This document shows positions 1 through 7,649 of a stretch of DNA of 7,649 bases, in pieces. Both the position numbers and the translations under genes were made by a program. The stretch spans positions 1 to 7,649 of the forward strand of contig JBGPLH010000150.1 of assembly GCA_041486365.1 (NCBI GenBank). The letters run 5' to 3'. The first letter of the stretch is position 1; every line of letters starts with the position of its first letter. Source of the stretch: JBGPLH01 sp041486365 [NCBI: Thermodesulfobacteriota bacterium] (GTDB lineage Bacteria > JAUYMQ01). The notes beneath the pieces were generated by a model. That model was not told the DNA's origin and did not search any database. It saw only the letters and a list, made by a program, of their open reading frames with translations.

Positions 1-743
1 CGCTCGGCCAGCGTGCGGGCGATGGCCGCGGTGATCCCCCGGGCGCCGCCGGTCACGAGGACGACTGCGGCGGAATCGATCGGATCGTTCGTCCGCTCCA
101 CGGGTGCGGCGACGGGCCGGAAGACGACGCGCCGGCCGCCGCGCCATGCGGACGCCACATCGGGACCGGGCGGTGCGGCCAGCTCCGAGAGGATGCGCCG
201 GACCTGGGTGGCCGCGTCCGCCGGATCGAGATCCACGGCACGGCACCGCACGGCGGGCCACTCCCAGGCGAGGCACTTGAGGAGCCCCGCGATGGCGCCG
301 CGGTGGGGGTTGGACGCCGCATCGGCCGTGGCGGCGAGCACGAACGCGTTGCCCCGCGCGGCCGCGTCCTTCAGATCGGACGCAGCCAGGCGGAGGAGCG
401 CGGCCAGCGACTTCACCTCGCCCCCGACCCGCGCGCGCCATGCTTCGAGGTCCAGGTCGTCGAAGGCGGGAGCGGCGGCCAGCGGCGCAAGATGGATCAC
501 CGCGCCGATGGGGCCCTGCGTCTCGCGCACGCGCGCGAGCTGGTCCTGGATCGCATAATCGAGTCGGATGACGACGGCGCGCGCGCCGAGATCGATGAGC
601 GCCCGGCCCATCGCATCGGCGATCCCGTCCTCGTCATCCGTGATCACGATGGCGCCCGTCGGCAGGGCAGGAGCGGTGGCGCTCCCCTCCCCGTCGACGC
701 TCGACGTCACCTCGCGGATCGCGAAGGCCGGCGCAGGGGCGAT
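1..743 (-). other. Domain: ketoreductase (KR), structural half plus start of catalytic half; truncated by window edge
   Basis: Residues from about 1955 to the window edge. The structural subdomain (to about 2150) includes GLLKCLAWEWP and CRAVDLDP, typical of PUFA-type KRs. The catalytic Rossmann fold then starts with VVLVTGGARGITA, whose TGGARGIT NADPH loop spans 2185-2192. The Ser-Tyr-Lys catalytic residues would lie past the left edge. It should reduce the beta-keto group formed by the KS. Activity cannot be judged from the visible part. Confidence 0.88.
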
Positions 744-3700
744 CCGCCCCTCCTCGGCGCCGCTTGGCACGGGAGGCTCCGCTTGCGCCTGCTGTGCCTC
801 CGGCGACTGCCCGTTCCCGGCGTGGTCCATCACGCCGGTTCCCTCCCGGTCGTGGCCGTTGCCCCGGGGCGCGGCACCGTTCCCGCCGCCGGAGCGAGGC
901 GGCCCGGCCACCGGTCCGGGCGGCGGGGGCGCCTCCGGTCCGCCGCCCGGGAGCGTGTCGGCGAGCAGGCCCGCGATCGACCGGAGCGACTTCAGCGTGC
1001 GCACCTTCTCCATGAACTCGTCGTCCGCCTTCCAGCCCGCGAGGGCGTCCCAAGTCTGGAAGGTACCGAGGATCTCCACCCGCTTGATCGAATCGATCCC
1101 CAGATCGGCCTCGAGGTCGAGATCGAGGTCGAGCATGTCCGGTGGGTAGCCGGTGCGCTCGCTCACGATGGCGAGGAGCTTCGAGGTCACGTCCTCGAGC
1201 GAGATCGCCGAGCGCGCGCCGTTGCCGCTCGGGGCGGGCGCGGGAGCCAAGGGCCGGACGGGCTTTGCTGAGGCACGGGGCTTCGCCGCCGCGGGGGACG
1301 CGGGCCTTGCGGCCATCGCGGGTGCGATGGGGCGCGCCACGGCGATCGGCTCGAGCAATGGCTGCGAGACGATGGCCTCGGCGTCCCCGGCGCCGAGTTC
1401 CGCCGGCGCGGAAGCGCCCTCGAGGAACGCGAGCATGACGCTCCGCTGCGTCTCGAGGAATCGGGCCATGAGCTGCTGGTGGTGGAGCATCACGGCCGCG
1501 CGATCGCCGCCGGGTGGCGAAACACGCGCGGGTGTGGTGGGGGCTTCGTCGTCGTGCCGGGTCATCTCAAACTCCCGAGGGCGGAGGGGTTCGGCGGTCG
1601 GTCCGGGCGCCGGTGTTGCCGGTGCGTGGCGCGGGGCCGGACGGGTGCGTTCCGTGCGGATCGCTTCCGCGGTTTCGACCCACGCGCTGGGCCTCGCCTC
1701 GTTCGCGGGCCGCACGCGGCTGCCGTTCACGAGCCAGATCGGGCGCGACGCAACCTTCGCCTCGGCCATGAGCGATGCGGGATCGAGGGAGATCAGGGCG
1801 CGGCCCTCGAAGAGCCCGTCGACGGCGACCGGCACGCCCTGGGCGAGCAGTTGCGCGAGCGCGTGCTGGAGCTGAAGGAGTCCGGCGCGCTTGCCGTTGT
1901 CGAGCGCGACGGCGGCGAAGTCGCGTCCGTCGAGGATCTGCTTCGTGAGGCCGGTGAGGACCGAGCCGGGGCCCGCTTCCACGAAAACGCGGGCGCCGGC
2001 CGCGTGCATCGCTTCGATCTCCTCCTGGAAGCGGACGGGCTTCACGAGGTGGTCGACGAGAAGCGCGAGCGCCGCTGCGGGATCGTCGGGGTAACGCCCG
2101 GCGAGCGTGTTCGACCAGACCTGGCACCGGGCGTCCGCGAGGCGGACCATCGATAGGGTCTTCGCGAGACAATCGCGCGCCGGGGCCATGAGCGGGGAGT
2201 GGAACGCGCAGGCCACGCGGATGGGGCGGCTCAGCAGGTCCAGCTCCTCCATCCGCCCCAGCGCCTTCTGCACCGCCTCGCGCGTGCCGGAGATGATCGT
2301 CTGCTTCGGCGAGTTGCGATTCGCCACGACGACGCCCTTGATGCCGCGCAGGGCCTCCTCCACCCTCGCGGCGGGCGCGTCCACGGCGGCCATCGTGCCG
2401 AGATCCCGATCCAGGGCCTCCACGATCGCGCGGCCGCGCGCCTCCGAGATCGAGAAGAGCGCCGCCTCGTCGATCCGTCCCGCCGCGTAGAGCGCCACGT
2501 ATTCGCCGTAGCTGTGCCCGGCCGCCATGTCCGGGCGCACGCCGAGGCGATCGAGCAGGGCGATCATCGCCGAGCCCGCGGCGCCGAGGGCGGGCTGCGC
2601 CACGCGCGTGTCGGTGATCGCCTCCATCGCGGCCTGCTCTTCCTCCTTCGTGAAACGCGGGCGGGGGAAGACGAGGGCGCTGAGAGGGCGCCCGAGTTTC
2701 GCGGCGAGGGCAACGTCGGCCCGTTCGAAGGCGGCGCGGACCTCGGGGAAGTGCACCGCCAGCTCGCGCAGCATGTCGGGGCGCTGCGATCCCTGGCCGG
2801 GGAAGAGGAACGCCACGCGGCCGTCCGGGGCCAGCGGCCGGTCGCTGAAGTAGATCCCGCGCGGATCCTCGAAGCGGCCCCCGGCGCCCGAGCGCAGGTG
2901 CTCGGCCGCGCGGCCGAGCTTGGCGGCGAGGTCTTCCTTGGAATCGGCGACGACGGCGAGCGTGAGCGCGGCCTCGCGGCCCCGGCGCGAGCGCAGCGCG
3001 GTGGCGGCCGTGCAGGCCAGGTCGGCGAGGGCGTGGGGCGTCGCCGGGTCCGCGGCGCGGAGGTACGGCTCGATCTGCGTGAGGAGCCCGGCGCGATCGG
3101 TTCCGCTCCAGGCGAGAAGCTCGCTCGGCCAGCGGCGCAGGGTCTTCTCCTCGCCCCCGAGGAAGTCTCCCTCGTACTCCTCCAGCACGGCGTGGAAGTT
3201 CGTCCCGCCGAAGCCGAAGGCGCTCACGCCGGCGCGGCGCGGATGATCCGCCGGCCGGATCCAGGGGCGCGTCTCCGCGTTCACGTAGAGCGGGCCCGTG
3301 CCGAAGCCCGACTTCGGGTTGGGTCTTTCCACGTTGATCGTGGGCGGCAGGATCCGGTCGTGGAGCGCCAGGGCGATCTTCATGAGACCCGCCACGCCCG
3401 CCGAGCACTTCGTGTGCCCGATCATCGACTTCACGGATCCGACGGCGCAGCTCCCGGGCTTCGCCCCCTCCGCCTCGAGCACGCGGGTGAGCGACTGGGC
3501 CTCGGCGAGATCGCCCGCCACGGTCCCCGTGCCGTGCGCCTCGAAGAGCCCGACGGTCGCGGGGGAGAAGCCGGCCTTCGCGTATGCGCGCTCCAGGGCG
3601 CGCATCTGTCCCTCGGGCCGGGGTGCCGTGAGGCCGCGGTCGCGCCCGTCGCTCGATCCACCGACTCCCTTGATCACCGCGTAGACGCGATCCCCGTCGC

Positions 3701-6605
3701 GCTCCGCGTCGTCCAGCCGCTTGAGCACCAGGGCGACGAGCCCCTCCGAGATCACGATCCCGTCCGCCTCGGTGTCGAAGGTCCGGCAGCGGCCGTGCGG
3801 CGAGAGGGCCTGGGTCTTCGCGAAGCAGAGGTAGGTGAAAGGATTCTGCATGGTGTCGGCGCCGCCGACGATCACCATGTCGCTGTTCAGGGTCTCGAGC
3901 TCCCGCACCGCCAGGTGCACCGCCGCGAGCGAGGATGCGCAGGCCGCGTCCACGGTGAAGTTCACGCCTCCGAGATCGAAGCGATTGGCCACGCGCCCCG
4001 CCGCGACGTTGGGGAGGATTCCGGCGAAGGAGTCCTCCGTCCACTTCGGGAGCCGCGCGTAGGCCTCCGGCCCGGCGTCGGGATCGACCATCGGGAGGTG
4101 GGAGCGGATCGCGTACTGCGCGCCCAGATCGGCCAGGCCGCCTCCGGCGCCGAAGATCACCGATGTCTTCTCACGGTTGAACTCGCGATCGAGGTAGCCC
4201 GCGTCCGAGAGCGCGGCGCGGGAGACCTCGAGCGTGAGCAGCTGCATCGGCTCGATGGAGGCGAGGGTGCTCGGAGGCATCCCGTAGGCCAGCGGGTCGA
4301 AGGGGATGTCCTCGAGGAAGCCGCCCCAGCGGGAATAGATCCTGTCCGGCGCCTTGCGGTCCTCGTCGAAGTAGAGTCGCCAGTCCCAGCGATCCGGGGG
4401 GATCTCCGTGATCGCGTCCCGCTTCGCGAGCACGTTCTCCCAGAAGGTCCGGAGATCCCCCGCCTTCGGGAGGAGGCAGCCCATGCCCACGATCGCGATG
4501 TCGCTGGGCGCCGGGCGGGCGGTGTCGGGGTCCCGGTGCGCGCGCGCGTGCTCGGAGAGCCACGCGGAGCTTCCGACGGAGACGTCGCGGTGGAGCGAGG
4601 CGATCGGGACGATGTCGTGGCGCAGCTCCGCGACCTGCCCGATCATGTACATCCCCTGACGGCGCTGCTCGGCGTCGCCCACGCGCGCGTGGCGGGGGAC
4701 GGGCGGGCCGCCGTTTCCGCCGCCGACGTGCGTGATCCCCTTGGATGCGATGCGCAATCGCCCGAGGTTCAGCATCTCGAGCGCGTCGCGGATCTCCTCC
4801 GCGGATCGCCCCTGCGCCAGGAGCCGCCGCTTCTCGTCGAGGAACTCCTGCGCAAAGGCTGTGTCCACGCAGCGGGTGGCGTGGCCGGGGCCGGTCTCCA
4901 GCAGCACCGTCCGGCGGCAGGCGAGTGCTTCCTCCTGGAACCCGGGCTGGATCGCGCCGGAGGAGACCGCCTCCTCCGTGAACAGGTACGCGGTCCCCAG
5001 GAGCACGCCGAGCTTCGCGCCGGCCTCCGCGAGCGGGGCGGCGAGGGTGGCGACCATGGCGGCCGAGCGCGCGTCGTGGATCCCGCCGGCGAAGATCACG
5101 TGGAGCTTCTCGAACTCGCCCGCCGGGGTCTTCCGGAGCAGCAGCTCGACCATCGTTTCCCACAGGACGAAGCTCGAGCGCGGGCCGACGTGCCCGCCGC
5201 ACTCGCGTCCCTCGAAGACGAATCGCCGCGCGCCGTCGGCCAGGAACATCTCGAGCAGGCCCGGCGAGGGCACGTGCAGGTAGGTGGCGATCCCCTCCCG
5301 CTCCAGCGCGAGGGCCTGATCGGGCCGTCCGCCGGCGATCAGCGCGAAGGGCGGACGCGCCTCGCGGATCGCCTCGAGCTGTTCCTTGCGGAGATCGAGC
5401 GGGACGAAGCCGAGTATCCCGACGCCCCAGGCGCGACCGCCGAAGTGTTCCCGCGTCTCCTCGAGGAGGGTCCGCACCTCCGCGCCCCGCATGAGGGCGA
5501 GGGCGAGGAAGGGGAGCGCACCTCCATCGGCGACCGCCTGCGCGAAGGGGGCCACATCGCTCACCCGGGTCATCGGGCCCTGAAGGATCGGATAACGCGT
5601 GCCGTGGGACCGTGCGAGCGCGGAGTCCTCGTCGAGGGGGCGGAGCCTTCGCGCGGCCGCAACGTGCGCGTCGATGGCGCGTCGGATTCCCTCGATCGCG
5701 CCGCCGGCTGTCATGAAACGCGACGCGATTCGCGCGGCGAAGGCCGCGTCCTGCCCCGTGAGCCAGGGCCTGTCGCCGGGAGACGGCTCGCGCATGGCCC
5801 GCGCGACGGCGTCGCGCATCGTCAGGCCCGCGTCGGGACCCCCTTCGGACTGGAGCCGGGTGTCGATCTCCTGGAGCGCTTCCGCGACGCGAAGGCCGGG
5901 ACGGGCGTACAGACGGGTGGTCGCGTCGCCGGCGAGCGCGGCTCCGAGGCAAAGCGTCTCGCTGCCGTCCATCGCGGCTAGTCGCGCGCGCAGAGGCTCC
6001 GGGATCGACGCGAGGCCCTCCCGCGTGAGGGCCAGTTGCCAGTCGAGCACGATGCCCGCGGCGCCCGCGGTCGCGCAGGCCGCCGCGGTGTGGAGCCCGA
6101 TCCCGCCCTGCACCCAGAGGGGGAGGCCCGCGTCCAGCGCGAGCAGTCGCTGCAGGAGGATGAAGGAGGTCTCGTCCCCGACACGGCCCCCCGCCTCGTG
6201 TCCCTTCGCGACGATGCCCGCGGCGCCGAGCCGCAGCGCCAGATCCACGAGGGACGCGTCACGTGCCTCGATGAGGATTGCGATCGATCGTCCCTCACGC
6301 AGCGCGCGGGCGGCGGATTCGATCCGCGCCGCGTCGGTCCCGGTCAGGATCGCGGCACCGCAGCGATCGGGCAGAAGAGGCAGAAGAGAATTCAGGAAAT
6401 CGGGATCGTCGGCATCCAGTCGCACGCCGAAGAGGGTACGGGTGTGCTCCTCGATGCGCGCGAGAGCGGACTCCGCGATGTCAGGCGCGGAGACGTACTC
6501 GAGGTCGAGCATGCCCAGCGCGCCTGCGCGCGAAGCGGCGATGGCCAGCCCCGGATCGGGGAATCCGGGGAGGGTGAGGACGATTTCCTTCGGGAGCCCG
6601 GCCAT
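1..6605 (-). CDS. PUFA-synthase-like type I polyketide/fatty acid synthase with N-terminal tandem NPD (PfaD-like) domains; C-terminus outside window
   Basis: One uninterrupted frame of 2201 codons plus two bases, open at the left edge. The start is the ATG at 6605-6603. It is preceded by a GGGTGATC ribosome site, and the first upstream in-frame stop (6683-6681) lies 25 codons away with no ATG, GTG or TTG between, so no other start is possible. Visible order: NPD1 (residues about 5-235), NPD2 (335-690), KS (702-1145), AT (1264-1580), helical linker, ACP (1802-1885), KR (from about 1955, cut). Key residues: H472, C889/H1024/H1064, S1365/H1469, S1839 and TGGARGIT at 2185-2192. The KS and ACP motifs (DAACASS, DLGIDSIKRVEI) are those of the PUFA/secondary-lipid synthase branch. 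Expected role: cytosolic iterative assembly of a fatty acyl or polyketide chain from malonyl units. The product, and any dehydratase after the KR, cannot be seen. The family call is secure; the product is unknown. Confidence 0.96.
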   Translation of the reverse strand, partial: MAGLPKEIVLTLPGFPDPGLAIAASRAGALGMLDLEYVSAPDIAESALARIEEHTRTLFGVRLDADDPDFLNSLLPLLPDRCGAAILTGTDAARIESAARALREGRSIAILIEARDASLVDLALRLGAAGIVAKGHEAGGRVGDETSFILLQRLLALDAGLPLWVQGGIGLHTAAACATAGAAGIVLDWQLALTREGLASIPEPLRARLAAMDGSETLCLGAALAGDATTRLYARPGLRVAEALQEIDTRLQSEGGPDAGLTMRDAVARAMREPSPGDRPWLTGQDAAFAARIASRFMTAGGAIEGIRRAIDAHVAAARRLRPLDEDSALARSHGTRYPILQGPMTRVSDVAPFAQAVADGGALPFLALALMRGAEVRTLLEETREHFGGRAWGVGILGFVPLDLRKEQLEAIREARPPFALIAGGRPDQALALEREGIATYLHVPSPGLLEMFLADGARRFVFEGRECGGHVGPRSSFVLWETMVELLLRKTPAGEFEKLHVIFAGGIHDARSAAMVATLAAPLAEAGAKLGVLLGTAYLFTEEAVSSGAIQPGFQEEALACRRTVLLETGPGHATRCVDTAFAQEFLDEKRRLLAQGRSAEEIRDALEMLNLGRLRIASKGITHVGGGNGGPPVPRHARVGDAEQRRQGMYMIGQVAELRHDIVPIASLHRDVSVGSSAWLSEHARAHRDPDTARPAPSDIAIVGMGCLLPKAGDLRTFWENVLAKRDAITEIPPDRWDWRLYFDEDRKAPDRIYSRWGGFLEDIPFDPLAYGMPPSTLASIEPMQLLTLEVSRAALSDAGYLDREFNREKTSVIFGAGGGLADLGAQYAIRSHLPMVDPDAGPEAYARLPKWTEDSFAGILPNVAAGRVANRFDLGGVNFTVDAACASSLAAVHLAVRELETLNSDMVIVGGADTMQNPFTYLCFAKTQALSPHGRCRTFDTEADGIVISEGLVALVLKRLDDAERDGDRVYAVIKGVGGSSDGRDRGLTAPRPEGQMRALERAYAKAGFSPATVGLFEAHGTGTVAGDLAEAQSLTRVLEAEGAKPGSCAVGSVKSMIGHTKCSAGVAGLMKIALALHDRILPPTINVERPNPKSGFGTGPLYVNAETRPWIRPADHPRRAGVSAFGFGGTNFHAVLEEYEGDFLGGEEKTLRRWPSELLAWSGTDRAGLLTQIEPYLRAADPATPHALADLACTAATALRSRRGREAALTLAVVADSKEDLAAKLGRAAEHLRSGAGGRFEDPRGIYFSDRPLAPDGRVAFLFPGQGSQRPDMLRELAVHFPEVRAAFERADVALAAKLGRPLSALVFPRPRFTKEEEQAAMEAITDTRVAQPALGAAGSAMIALLDRLGVRPDMAAGHSYGEYVALYAAGRIDEAALFSISEARGRAIVEALDRDLGTMAAVDAPAARVEEALRGIKGVVVANRNSPKQTIISGTREAVQKALGRMEELDLLSRPIRVACAFHSPLMAPARDCLAKTLSMVRLADARCQVWSNTLAGRYPDDPAAALALLVDHLVKPVRFQEEIEAMHAAGARVFVEAGPGSVLTGLTKQILDGRDFAAVALDNGKRAGLLQLQHALAQLLAQGVPVAVDGLFEGRALISLDPASLMAEAKVASRPIWLVNGSRVRPANEARPSAWVETAEAIRTERTRPAPRHAPATPAPGPTAEPLRPREFEMTRHDDEAPTTPARVSPPGGDRAAVMLHHQQLMARFLETQRSVMLAFLEGASAPAELGAGDAEAIVSQPLLEPIAVARPIAPAMAARPASPAAAKPRASAKPVRPLAPAPAPSGNGARSAISLEDVTSKLLAIVSERTGYPPDMLDLDLDLEADLGIDSIKRVEILGTFQTWDALAGWKADDEFMEKVRTLKSLRSIAGLLADTLPGGGPEAPPPPGPVAGPPRSGGGNGAAPRGNGHDREGTGVMDHAGNGQSPEAQQAQAEPPVPSGAEEGRIAPAPAFAIREVTSSVDGEGSATAPALPTGAIVITDDEDGIADAMGRALIDLGARAVVIRLDYAIQDQLARVRETQGPIGAVIHLAPLAAAPAFDDLDLEAWRARVGGEVKSLAALLRLAASDLKDAAARGNAFVLAATADAASNPHRGAIAGLLKCLAWEWPAVRCRAVDLDPADAATQVRRILSELAAPPGPDVASAWRGGRRVVFRPVAAPVERTNDPIDSAAVVLVTGGARGITAAIARTLAE
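951..1202 (-). other. Domain: acyl carrier protein (single copy)
   Basis: Residues about 1802-1885. The four-helix carrier fold carries LEADLGIDSIKRVEIL, with Ser1839 as the phosphopantetheine attachment site. It closely resembles the carrier domains of PUFA synthases, but only one copy is visible, whereas PfaA-type proteins usually carry several in tandem. It is followed by a Gly/Pro/Asn-rich flexible linker (about 1886-1960). A phosphopantetheinyl transferase is required and is not encoded in the window. Confidence 0.95.
1416..1496 (-). other. Post-AT amphipathic helix (probable dimerisation element)
   Basis: Residues about 1704-1730 form a predicted helix containing HHQQLMARFLETQ with hydrophobic residues at helical spacing (M, L, F, V, M, L). 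It is isolated between two low-complexity Pro/Ala-rich linkers (about 1625-1700 and 1750-1797). Similar helices with an FLxTQ core occur between AT and ACP in related large synthases. A self-association role is inferred. Confidence 0.45.
1866..2816 (-). other. Domain: acyltransferase (AT), probably malonyl-specific
   Basis: Residues about 1264-1580. PGQGSQ lies at 1269-1274. The nucleophile Ser1365 is in GHSYGEY, and the catalytic His1469 is in ACAFHSPL. Arg1390 lies exactly 25 residues after the Ser, the spacing of the carboxylate-binding Arg in FabD, so an extender with a free carboxylate is expected. The AFH form of the specificity motif resembles malonyl (HAFH) and not methylmalonyl (YASH) enzymes. 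Malonyl specificity is therefore likely but inferred. Confidence 0.92.
3171..4502 (-). other. Domain: ketosynthase (KS)
   Basis: Residues about 702-1145. It begins DIAIVGMGC (702-710) and ends in GFGGTNFH (H1138). The catalytic triad is intact: Cys889 in VDAACASS, His1024 in EAHGTGT and His1064 in VKSMIGHTK. It performs decarboxylative Claisen condensation of malonyl-ACP with the growing chain. The DAACASS and SVKSMIGHTKCSAG forms are characteristic of PUFA, heterocyst-glycolipid and enediyne iterative synthases more than of modular PKSs. This is a working condensing domain by residue content. Confidence 0.95.
4536..5603 (-). other. Domain: second NPD/PfaD-like FMN barrel (NPD2), probable enoyl reductase
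   Basis: Residues about 335-690. It has the complete family signature: PILQGPM at 339-345, GRECGGH with H472, and AGGIHD at 506-511. It ends with a helical extension containing EEIRDALEMLNLGR, of the kind that follows the barrel in PfaD-like proteins. PfaD is the stand-alone FMN enoyl reductase of PUFA synthases. A fused copy here suggests enoyl reduction in cis, upstream of the KS. The fold and motifs are seen directly; the enoyl-reductase assignment follows from the PUFA-synthase relatives, since nitronate oxidation would make no sense inside this protein. Confidence 0.85.
5901..6593 (-). other. Domain: first nitronate-monooxygenase-like TIM barrel (NPD1), apparently degenerate
   Basis: Residues about 5-235 of the synthase. 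Alternating strands and helices are typical of the FMN-dependent nitronate monooxygenase/PfaD enoyl-reductase fold. Recognisable parts are an opening PGFPDPGLAIA segment, GAAGIVAKGHEAGG ending at residue 140, and the WVQGGIG phosphate-loop-like motif at 164-170. The usual N-terminal QGPM motif is missing. The family signature GxEAGGH reads GHEAGGR, so residue 141 is Arg (codon CGT) where the catalytic His normally sits. By inference this copy may bind flavin or serve a structural role without normal chemistry. A helical stretch (about 236-333) joins it to the second barrel. Confidence 0.8.
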
Positions 6606-7494: not shown

Positions 7495-7649
7495 ATGTCG
7501 GAAGCATCGCCATCTCCCTCGAACGGATCGGGCCCGAACGGATCGCAGAATCCGAACGGCGGCAACGGATCGGCGCGCCCCAACGGCTCGCAGGGTCCGA
7601 ACGGTTTCCCGTGCCTCCGTTCGGGGCTGCAGATCATCCCCCGTCCCCG
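7495..7649 (+). CDS. N-terminus of a hypothetical protein with Asn-Gly-rich leader; cut by the window edge
   Basis: Fifty-one codons plus two bases are visible from the ATG at 7495, open to the right edge. The first 38 residues are low complexity with six Asn-Gly dipeptides set among Ser and Pro. A less repetitive segment, CLRSGLQIIPRP, follows. Third codon positions are mostly G or C, as in the synthase, which supports coding. The start is uncertain: GGAGG near 7470 is about 20 bases away, and the frame stays open back to the stop at 7399-7401, with a GTG at 7453 as an alternative start. No family is recognised. Divergent orientation next to the synthase suggests but does not prove a related role. 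Confidence 0.5.
   Translation, partial: MSEASPSPSNGSGPNGSQNPNGGNGSARPNGSQGPNGFPCLRSGLQIIPRP

Follow-up and report, generated by a model that had tools for sequence, protein, structure and literature searches.

Why should a bacterial synthase carry two enoyl-reductase-like barrels in tandem at its N-terminus, when only the second of them has the motifs of a catalyst? The question is raised by a 7,649-nucleotide stretch of DNA from a Thermodesulfobacteriota bacterium (contig JBGPLH010000150.1, assembly GCA_041486365.1; the whole of this stretch is called the window below), in which a single long reading frame encodes a multidomain protein that opens with two such barrels, NPD1 and NPD2 (Table 1). 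The answer that we favor, with moderate confidence, is that NPD1 is a pseudo-enoyl-reductase that has been kept as the pairing partner of an active NPD2 in an ArsA-like iterative synthase.

Loss of the catalytic residues in NPD1

Within the window protein, NPD1 and NPD2 are 20.5% identical. The original prediction was that the catalytic motifs of these tandem barrels are confined to the second, and this description holds good: NPD2 has both QGPM and GGH472, whereas NPD1 lacks QGPM and has KGHEAGGR141 where NPD2 has GGH472. The same prediction put R141 at the position of H472 and, indeed, the two residues fall in one column of a 109-row alignment.

The relatives with which these barrels were compared come from several samples. 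A first set, from one genome-contig scan, consisted of four loci, three with both barrels and one (L004) with only the NPD2 end. Searches with NPD1 profiles covered 1173 sampled genomes from the phyla of L001 (Planctomycetota), L002 (Ca. Cyanaurora) and L003 (Deltaproteobacteria), and five plasmid records (Beijerinckia indica, Methylosinus, two Streptomyces and a Rhodobacteraceae) supplied further homologues. An NPD2-led search (E≤1e-30) covered 733 genomes, 375 from the phylum of L003 and 358 from that of L002, and gave 26 and 7 matches respectively; these 33 matches are defined by their NPD2 barrel, their continuation into the ketosynthase (KS) not having been read one by one. In the genome searches about five or six first-look candidates were scored per genome, so that matches can be missed. 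The alignment of 36 tandem proteins includes the window protein and two near-identical Streptomyces genes; two loci were left out of it, L036, which duplicates the gene of L089, and L046, which is truncated at a contig end and was read separately. The stand-alone controls are the 33 barrels that were fetched, rather than all stand-alone matches, one more (L070) having been dropped because a contig end cuts it.

Three residues were taken as the marks of a FabK-type catalytic barrel: the motif-I Met, the His and the Gly of the beta-8 GT (M345, H472 and G537 in the window NPD2). The Gly presumably sits at the phosphate of flavin mononucleotide (FMN), as in FabK structures. Each of the three is found in 36/36 of the aligned NPD2s and in 0/36 of the NPD1s. 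At the Met position 28 of the NPD1s have Pro; at the Gly position, where the stand-alone barrels have Gly in 33/33, they have Asp (28), Glu (3) or another residue (5), but never Gly. The motif-I Met contacts FMN, according to passages of PMC13311796. The prediction had offered a specialization of the first copy, possibly as a flavin-binding module; specialization is supported, but flavin binding is disfavored because the presumed FMN-phosphate Gly is Asp or Glu in 31/36 and Gly in none.

At the His site, the 36 aligned NPD1s have Trp (14), Arg (11), Phe (5), Leu (3), Ile, Lys or Gln (one each), eleven further genes have Phe (10) or Trp (1), and two more (L046 and L128) have Met and Phe. No His is thus found at position 141 in any of the 49 distinct genes, the window included, in which this site can be read; in every case a bulky side chain stands there instead (W, R, F, L, I, K, Q or M). 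In contrast, the His of NPD2 is present in all 36 aligned proteins and in the 31 read from the NPD2-led matches. The stand-alone barrels have it in 31/33 cases and PfaD in 4/4; the contrast between the stand-alone barrels and NPD1 gives a Fisher p of 1.3e-17, uncorrected for relatedness. As judged from these alignments, the loss of the His from NPD1 is old and general, a trait of a broad tandem-barrel family and not a peculiarity of the window. The arginine itself, whose conservation the prediction had left to be checked, turns out not to be a specific new residue: Arg occurs in 11/36 and the position has changed at least 12 times on the tree, on which grounds Arg141 was rejected as a conserved new active-site residue. 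Five other positions of NPD1 (G135, E137, L150, G181 and R231) are invariant (36/36) at a median pairwise identity of 27.4%.

A second subfamily of tandem synthases (L087, L088, L090 and L119-L133) has QGAM for QGPM in the 13 NPD2s read, and typically LKG.E..GF in NPD1 and ES[LV]HW at the expected GT site. Five genomes (G881, G1090, G1108, G970 and G1132) have two NPD2-led matches each; in the first three of these, one match comes from each of the two subfamilies.

Fold, family and retention of NPD1

AlphaFold models of NPD1 alone and of both barrels rest on four sequences each. The former (pLDDT 60.7, pTM 0.55, a low confidence) has strand-helix units in barrel order, with a first strand of two residues; the latter (pLDDT 60.0, pTM 0.39) has eight strands within residues 7-188. 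With so few sequences and a mean pLDDT of ~60 the models lend support to the fold, though not to the way in which the barrels are arranged, and at a pTM of 0.39 the relative placement of NPD1 and NPD2 is not predicted. Over positions 16-306, a profile of four NPD1s is colinear with 27-306 of the Thermotoga maritima FabK chain (E 9.3e-23), with the C-terminal GQ element included, and a profile match to FabK structures was also found for NPD2. The same FabK ranks first when the NPD1 model is searched with Foldseek (E 7.8e-11, TM 0.56, rmsd 6.3), and VIA-align superposes a FabK on this model over 274 residues (Z 14.7, rmsd 5.2). In the two-barrel model, residues 1-279 align to FabK (Z 20.9, 224 residues, rmsd 4.6) and residues 328-544 to the MlnA enoyl reductase (ER) (Z 18.4, 204 residues, rmsd 2.6). 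NPD1 therefore looks like a complete and separate barrel, as had been predicted; the models, the FabK profile match and the fold alignments agree on this, at a low model confidence.

The family is less sharply defined than the fold. In the VIA-align comparison with the NPD1 model, nitronate monooxygenase (NMO), MlnA and PfaD all come within ~1 Z of FabK (PfaD at 13.7), with the unrelated IMP dehydrogenase barrels at ~11. The NCBI FabK model (TIGR03151) gives 31.1 bits for NPD1 and 64.1 bits for NPD2, far under its cut-off of 453.1. The PfaD model (TIGR02814, cut-off 449.25 bits) gave no match up to E 1 for either barrel of the window protein or of L001, in a search whose filters drop most matches above E ~0.1. 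These sequence models place both barrels closer to FabK than to PfaD, and PfaD membership was rejected for either barrel on the lack of a listed TIGR02814 match, the fold alone leaving the four families within ~1 Z. The description of the barrels as PfaD-like was consequently a loose one: it suits the near tie by fold, and not the NCBI models.

In the tree, the 36 NPD1s form one clade (SH-aLRT 100), the 36 NPD2s another (SH-aLRT 99) and the four PfaD rows a clade of their own; several NPD1 branches are long and the letter make-up is uneven. The prediction had invoked a duplication followed by loss of catalysis in one copy. The loss of motifs fits, but a duplication of NPD2 is not settled: the free tree puts NPD1 apart from NPD2 on a long branch, yet a single clade of the two is not rejected (p-AU 0.63), and the tree constrained to have it reached a higher likelihood than the free one. 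The tree distances of the two barrels are well correlated (Spearman 0.79, 0/999 permutations, n=34 after removal of two near-copies). In 31/33 of the NPD2-led matches an in-frame, legible NPD1 is present; L128 has the NPD1 motif with an in-frame stop between it and NPD2, and L110 is cut by a contig end, a fragment of NPD1 (L046) lying at the end of another contig of the same genome. None of these 33 matches thus shows an NPD2 without NPD1. The ratio of non-synonymous to synonymous substitution rates (dN/dS, Nei-Gojobori) for NPD1 is 0.17-0.37 in 7/8 pairs, the eighth being saturated and several others having dS >1. By this measure NPD1 is under purifying selection.

Possible roles for a retained barrel

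Several points can be regarded as established from sequence: the presence of two barrels, the absence of the His, the Met and the beta-8 Gly from the first, the generality of that loss, the co-inheritance of the barrels and the purifying selection. To judge from its motifs, NPD2 would be a working FMN-dependent ER of the FabK type that reduces the enoyl intermediate, while NPD1 is very likely incapable of the FabK reaction and probably does not bind FMN in the usual way. TIM-barrel ERs work as dimers, and we propose that pairing with NPD2 is the reason for the retention of NPD1; it would serve as the second subunit for NPD2, either in cis or across the dimer of the polyketide synthase (PKS). 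Such a pairing may be likened to that of the chain length factor (CLF) with KS, in which an active domain has a retained inactive homologue, and to that of ERb with ERc in the thraustochytrids. Passages of PMC13311796 describe the ERs of Pfas, fatty acid synthase (FAS) and PKS as homodimers, and report that ERb on its own aggregated and seemed to be free of FMN, whereas together with ERc it gave a heterodimer that was stable and contained FMN.

Several observations weigh against this proposal. The thraustochytrid ERb and ERc both retain the His (passages of PMC13311796), so that they offer an analogy for the pairing but not for the loss. A contact between NPD1 and NPD2 has no support from the two-barrel model (pTM 0.39). 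Two of the 33 stand-alone barrels (L059 and L062) also lack the His, having Leu and Ala, so that the loss is not restricted to tandem proteins. NPD1 retains E137 and the beta-7 GG, and some pocket may remain. Finally, the dN/dS of NPD1 exceeds that of NPD2 in 5/5 pairs computable for both, which fits a weaker constraint, and the evolutionary rate of NPD1 is about double that of NPD2 (ratio 2.08); NPD1 is thus constrained, though less than NPD2.

The main rival, which we rate as distinctly less probable than pairing but a serious candidate nonetheless, is that NPD1 is a non-catalytic binding module that holds the acyl carrier protein (ACP) or the acyl chain during its extension, or controls when NPD2 may reduce, without being a subunit of a dimer. 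The large side chain that always occupies the His site, as if an old pocket had been plugged or reshaped, is in keeping with this, and so are the invariant E137 and R231, residues that would fit pairing equally well; the repeated changes at position 141, however, argue against a precise contact there.

A bolder form of the pairing proposal, which we consider rather improbable, makes NPD1 the ER counterpart of the CLF: by pairing with NPD2 it would determine which cycles of the iterative synthase include reduction of the double bond, or the chain length up to which this reduction takes place. If this were true, an exchange or a mutation of NPD1 should alter what the synthase makes. To our knowledge, the control of cycle-by-cycle reduction in iterative synthases is poorly understood.

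It is unlikely, in our estimation slightly more so than the CLF-like role, that NPD1 is itself active but uses a different cofactor or catalyzes a different reaction, as another redox module or an isomerase module. Its purifying selection and its retention of E137, G135 and the beta-7 GG would fit such an enzyme, and the fold can take on other chemistry, being shared by the dehydrogenase/isomerase FabX of Helicobacter pylori. Nevertheless, the catalytic His, the motif-I Met and the beta-8 Gly have all been lost, and the His site is occupied by a variety of residues, unlike an active site. As for the view that NPD1 is a functionless remnant of a duplication in the course of decay, the lost motifs, the faster evolution and the higher dN/dS would suit it, but we consider it very unlikely in view of an NPD1 that accompanies NPD2 in 32/33 NPD2-led matches (the last one cut by a contig end), a dN/dS of 0.17-0.37 and five positions that remain invariant in such divergent sequences.

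The NCBI conserved-domain collection has an entry NPD_PKS, and hence the presence of NPD barrels in PKSs was already known. Text searches of the open literature found no description of an inactive NPD1 barrel, although PMC3098273 may depict a pair of ERs for some types in its figure 1. Retained as it is in widely different bacteria, an inactive twin of an ER offers a clear candidate, open to experiment, for an element of structure or of programming; it may also help to account for the failure of ER domains that have been isolated or transplanted. Moreover, counting "two ER domains" by fold alone would overstate the catalytic capacity of such synthases.

The synthase, its neighbors and related systems

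The reading frame of the window protein begins with an ATG, upstream of which lies GGGTGATCTC, and is still open at the window edge. Its domain order is NPD1-NPD2-KS-acyltransferase (AT)-ACP, followed by the start of a ketoreductase (KR) region (Table 1). On the opposite side, at 7495-7649 (+), a divergent open reading frame (ORF) rich in Pro-Asn-Gly repeats starts and runs for 51 aa up to the end of the window; Pfam gave no match for it.

Table 1. Features of the synthase gene in the window (residues are numbered on the window protein).
Feature	Position	Strand	Basis
Multidomain synthase reading frame, 2201 aa, cut by the left window edge	3..6605	-	ORF call
NPD1, residues 1-325, putative FabK-fold pseudo-enoyl-reductase barrel	5631..6605	-	AlphaFold models; FabK-structure profile match; VIA-align; 36-row alignment
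E137 of NPD1	6195..6197	-	Invariant, 36/36 NPD1
R141 of NPD1, at catalytic-His column	6183..6185	-	Shares column with H472
D188 of NPD1, at G537 column (presumed FMN-phosphate Gly)	6042..6044	-	D 28, E 3, G 0 of 36
NPD2, residues 330-690, motif-intact putative FabK/NMO-type enoyl-reductase barrel	4536..5618	-	Pfam NMO 408-625; FabK model, below cut-off; FabK-structure profile match
QGPM, residues 342-345, motif I of NPD2	5571..5582	-	Alignment: QGPM 33/36, QGAM 3/36
H472, proposed catalytic His of NPD2	5190..5192	-	His in 36/36 NPD2
Ketosynthase, residues 702-1093	3327..4502	-	Pfam
Acyltransferase, residues 1266-1559	1929..2810	-	Pfam
Acyl carrier protein, residues 1809-1850, LGIDSIKRVE, sole ACP detected	1056..1181	-	Pfam
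Start of ketoreductase region, residues 2000-2201, cut by the window edge	3..608	-	Weak sub-cut-off Pfam match, 2000-2076

The PfaA model (TIGR02813) gives the protein 870.2 bits against a cut-off of 1010.1, the window edge having cut the protein short, and Pfam finds one PP-binding stretch rather than the several tandem ACPs of a polyunsaturated fatty acid (PUFA) synthase. A homologue of 2674 aa is encoded on the plasmid pBIND02 of Beijerinckia indica ATCC 9039, where it is followed by two genes with an annotation as ketoacyl-ACP synthase III-like, the first of the chalcone/stilbene-synthase family (Pfam); a further neighbor encodes a protein with dehydratase (DH) and phosphopantetheinyl transferase (PPTase) domains. 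The Type P set of secondary lipid synthases defined by Shulse and Allen contains B. indica ATCC 9039 and Azotobacter vinelandii, and synthases of this type make the alkyl chains that phenolic lipids contain (passages of PMC3098273); from the neighboring genes, we infer that the pBIND02 gene is the Type P gene that they meant. For ArsA, the background is drawn from portions of PMC3098273, PMC4824345, PMC6274091 and PMC13291983. Other homologues have a second PKS protein downstream, with KS, AT, DH and PPTase domains in the three that were scanned with Pfam (L075, L082 and L092). Given the Type P placement of the B. indica strain and this downstream PKS with its DH and PPTase, an iterative synthase of secondary lipids is the most likely identity of the window protein.

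The ars-like cluster is plasmid-borne in B. indica and in Methylosinus sp. C49 (the L091 and L093 loci). In the cyanobacterial loci, neighboring proteins with a similar start are encoded at L078:784-3084, L079:3-1421 and L089:12231-13685; Pfam finds nothing in two of them and a methyltransferase domain in the third. L002 and L077 have a similar-looking gene upstream of the tandem gene, of the sulfatase family in L077 (Pfam), and a gene lies directly upstream of the tandem gene at L084:6827-7783 and L086:14065-15021, with a TetR-like DNA-binding domain in the case of L084.

Among known systems, the KS-CLF pair resembles the NPD barrels only in the keeping of an inactive partner, its fold and its reaction being different. 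FabK and nitronate monooxygenase share the fold and the colinear sequence match, but they are stand-alone enzymes whose catalytic motifs NPD1 lacks, and both barrels score far below the FabK cut-off. The PfaD of classical PUFA synthases belongs to the same barrel superfamily, acts at the same step and comes close to FabK in its match to the NPD1 model (Z 13.7 versus 14.7); however, it is a separate protein with its own clade (four rows), and its model gave no listed match for NPD1 or NPD2. The thraustochytrid ERb and ERc provide two TIM-barrel ERs per synthase in a stable heterodimer, one of them being unstable and apparently FMN-free on its own; they differ in being two polypeptides, 75-80% identical and close to PfaD, that both keep the catalytic His (passages of PMC13311796). 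The system most like that of the window is ArsA/Type P. One ACP was detected in the window protein, and the window ends before the position of any type III PKS neighbor. The window and B. indica proteins have in common the layout NPD1-NPD2-KS-AT-ACP-KR, the KR of the window being partial and below the cut-off; in the B. indica protein, NPD2 has the His and NPD1 has Gln at the corresponding site.

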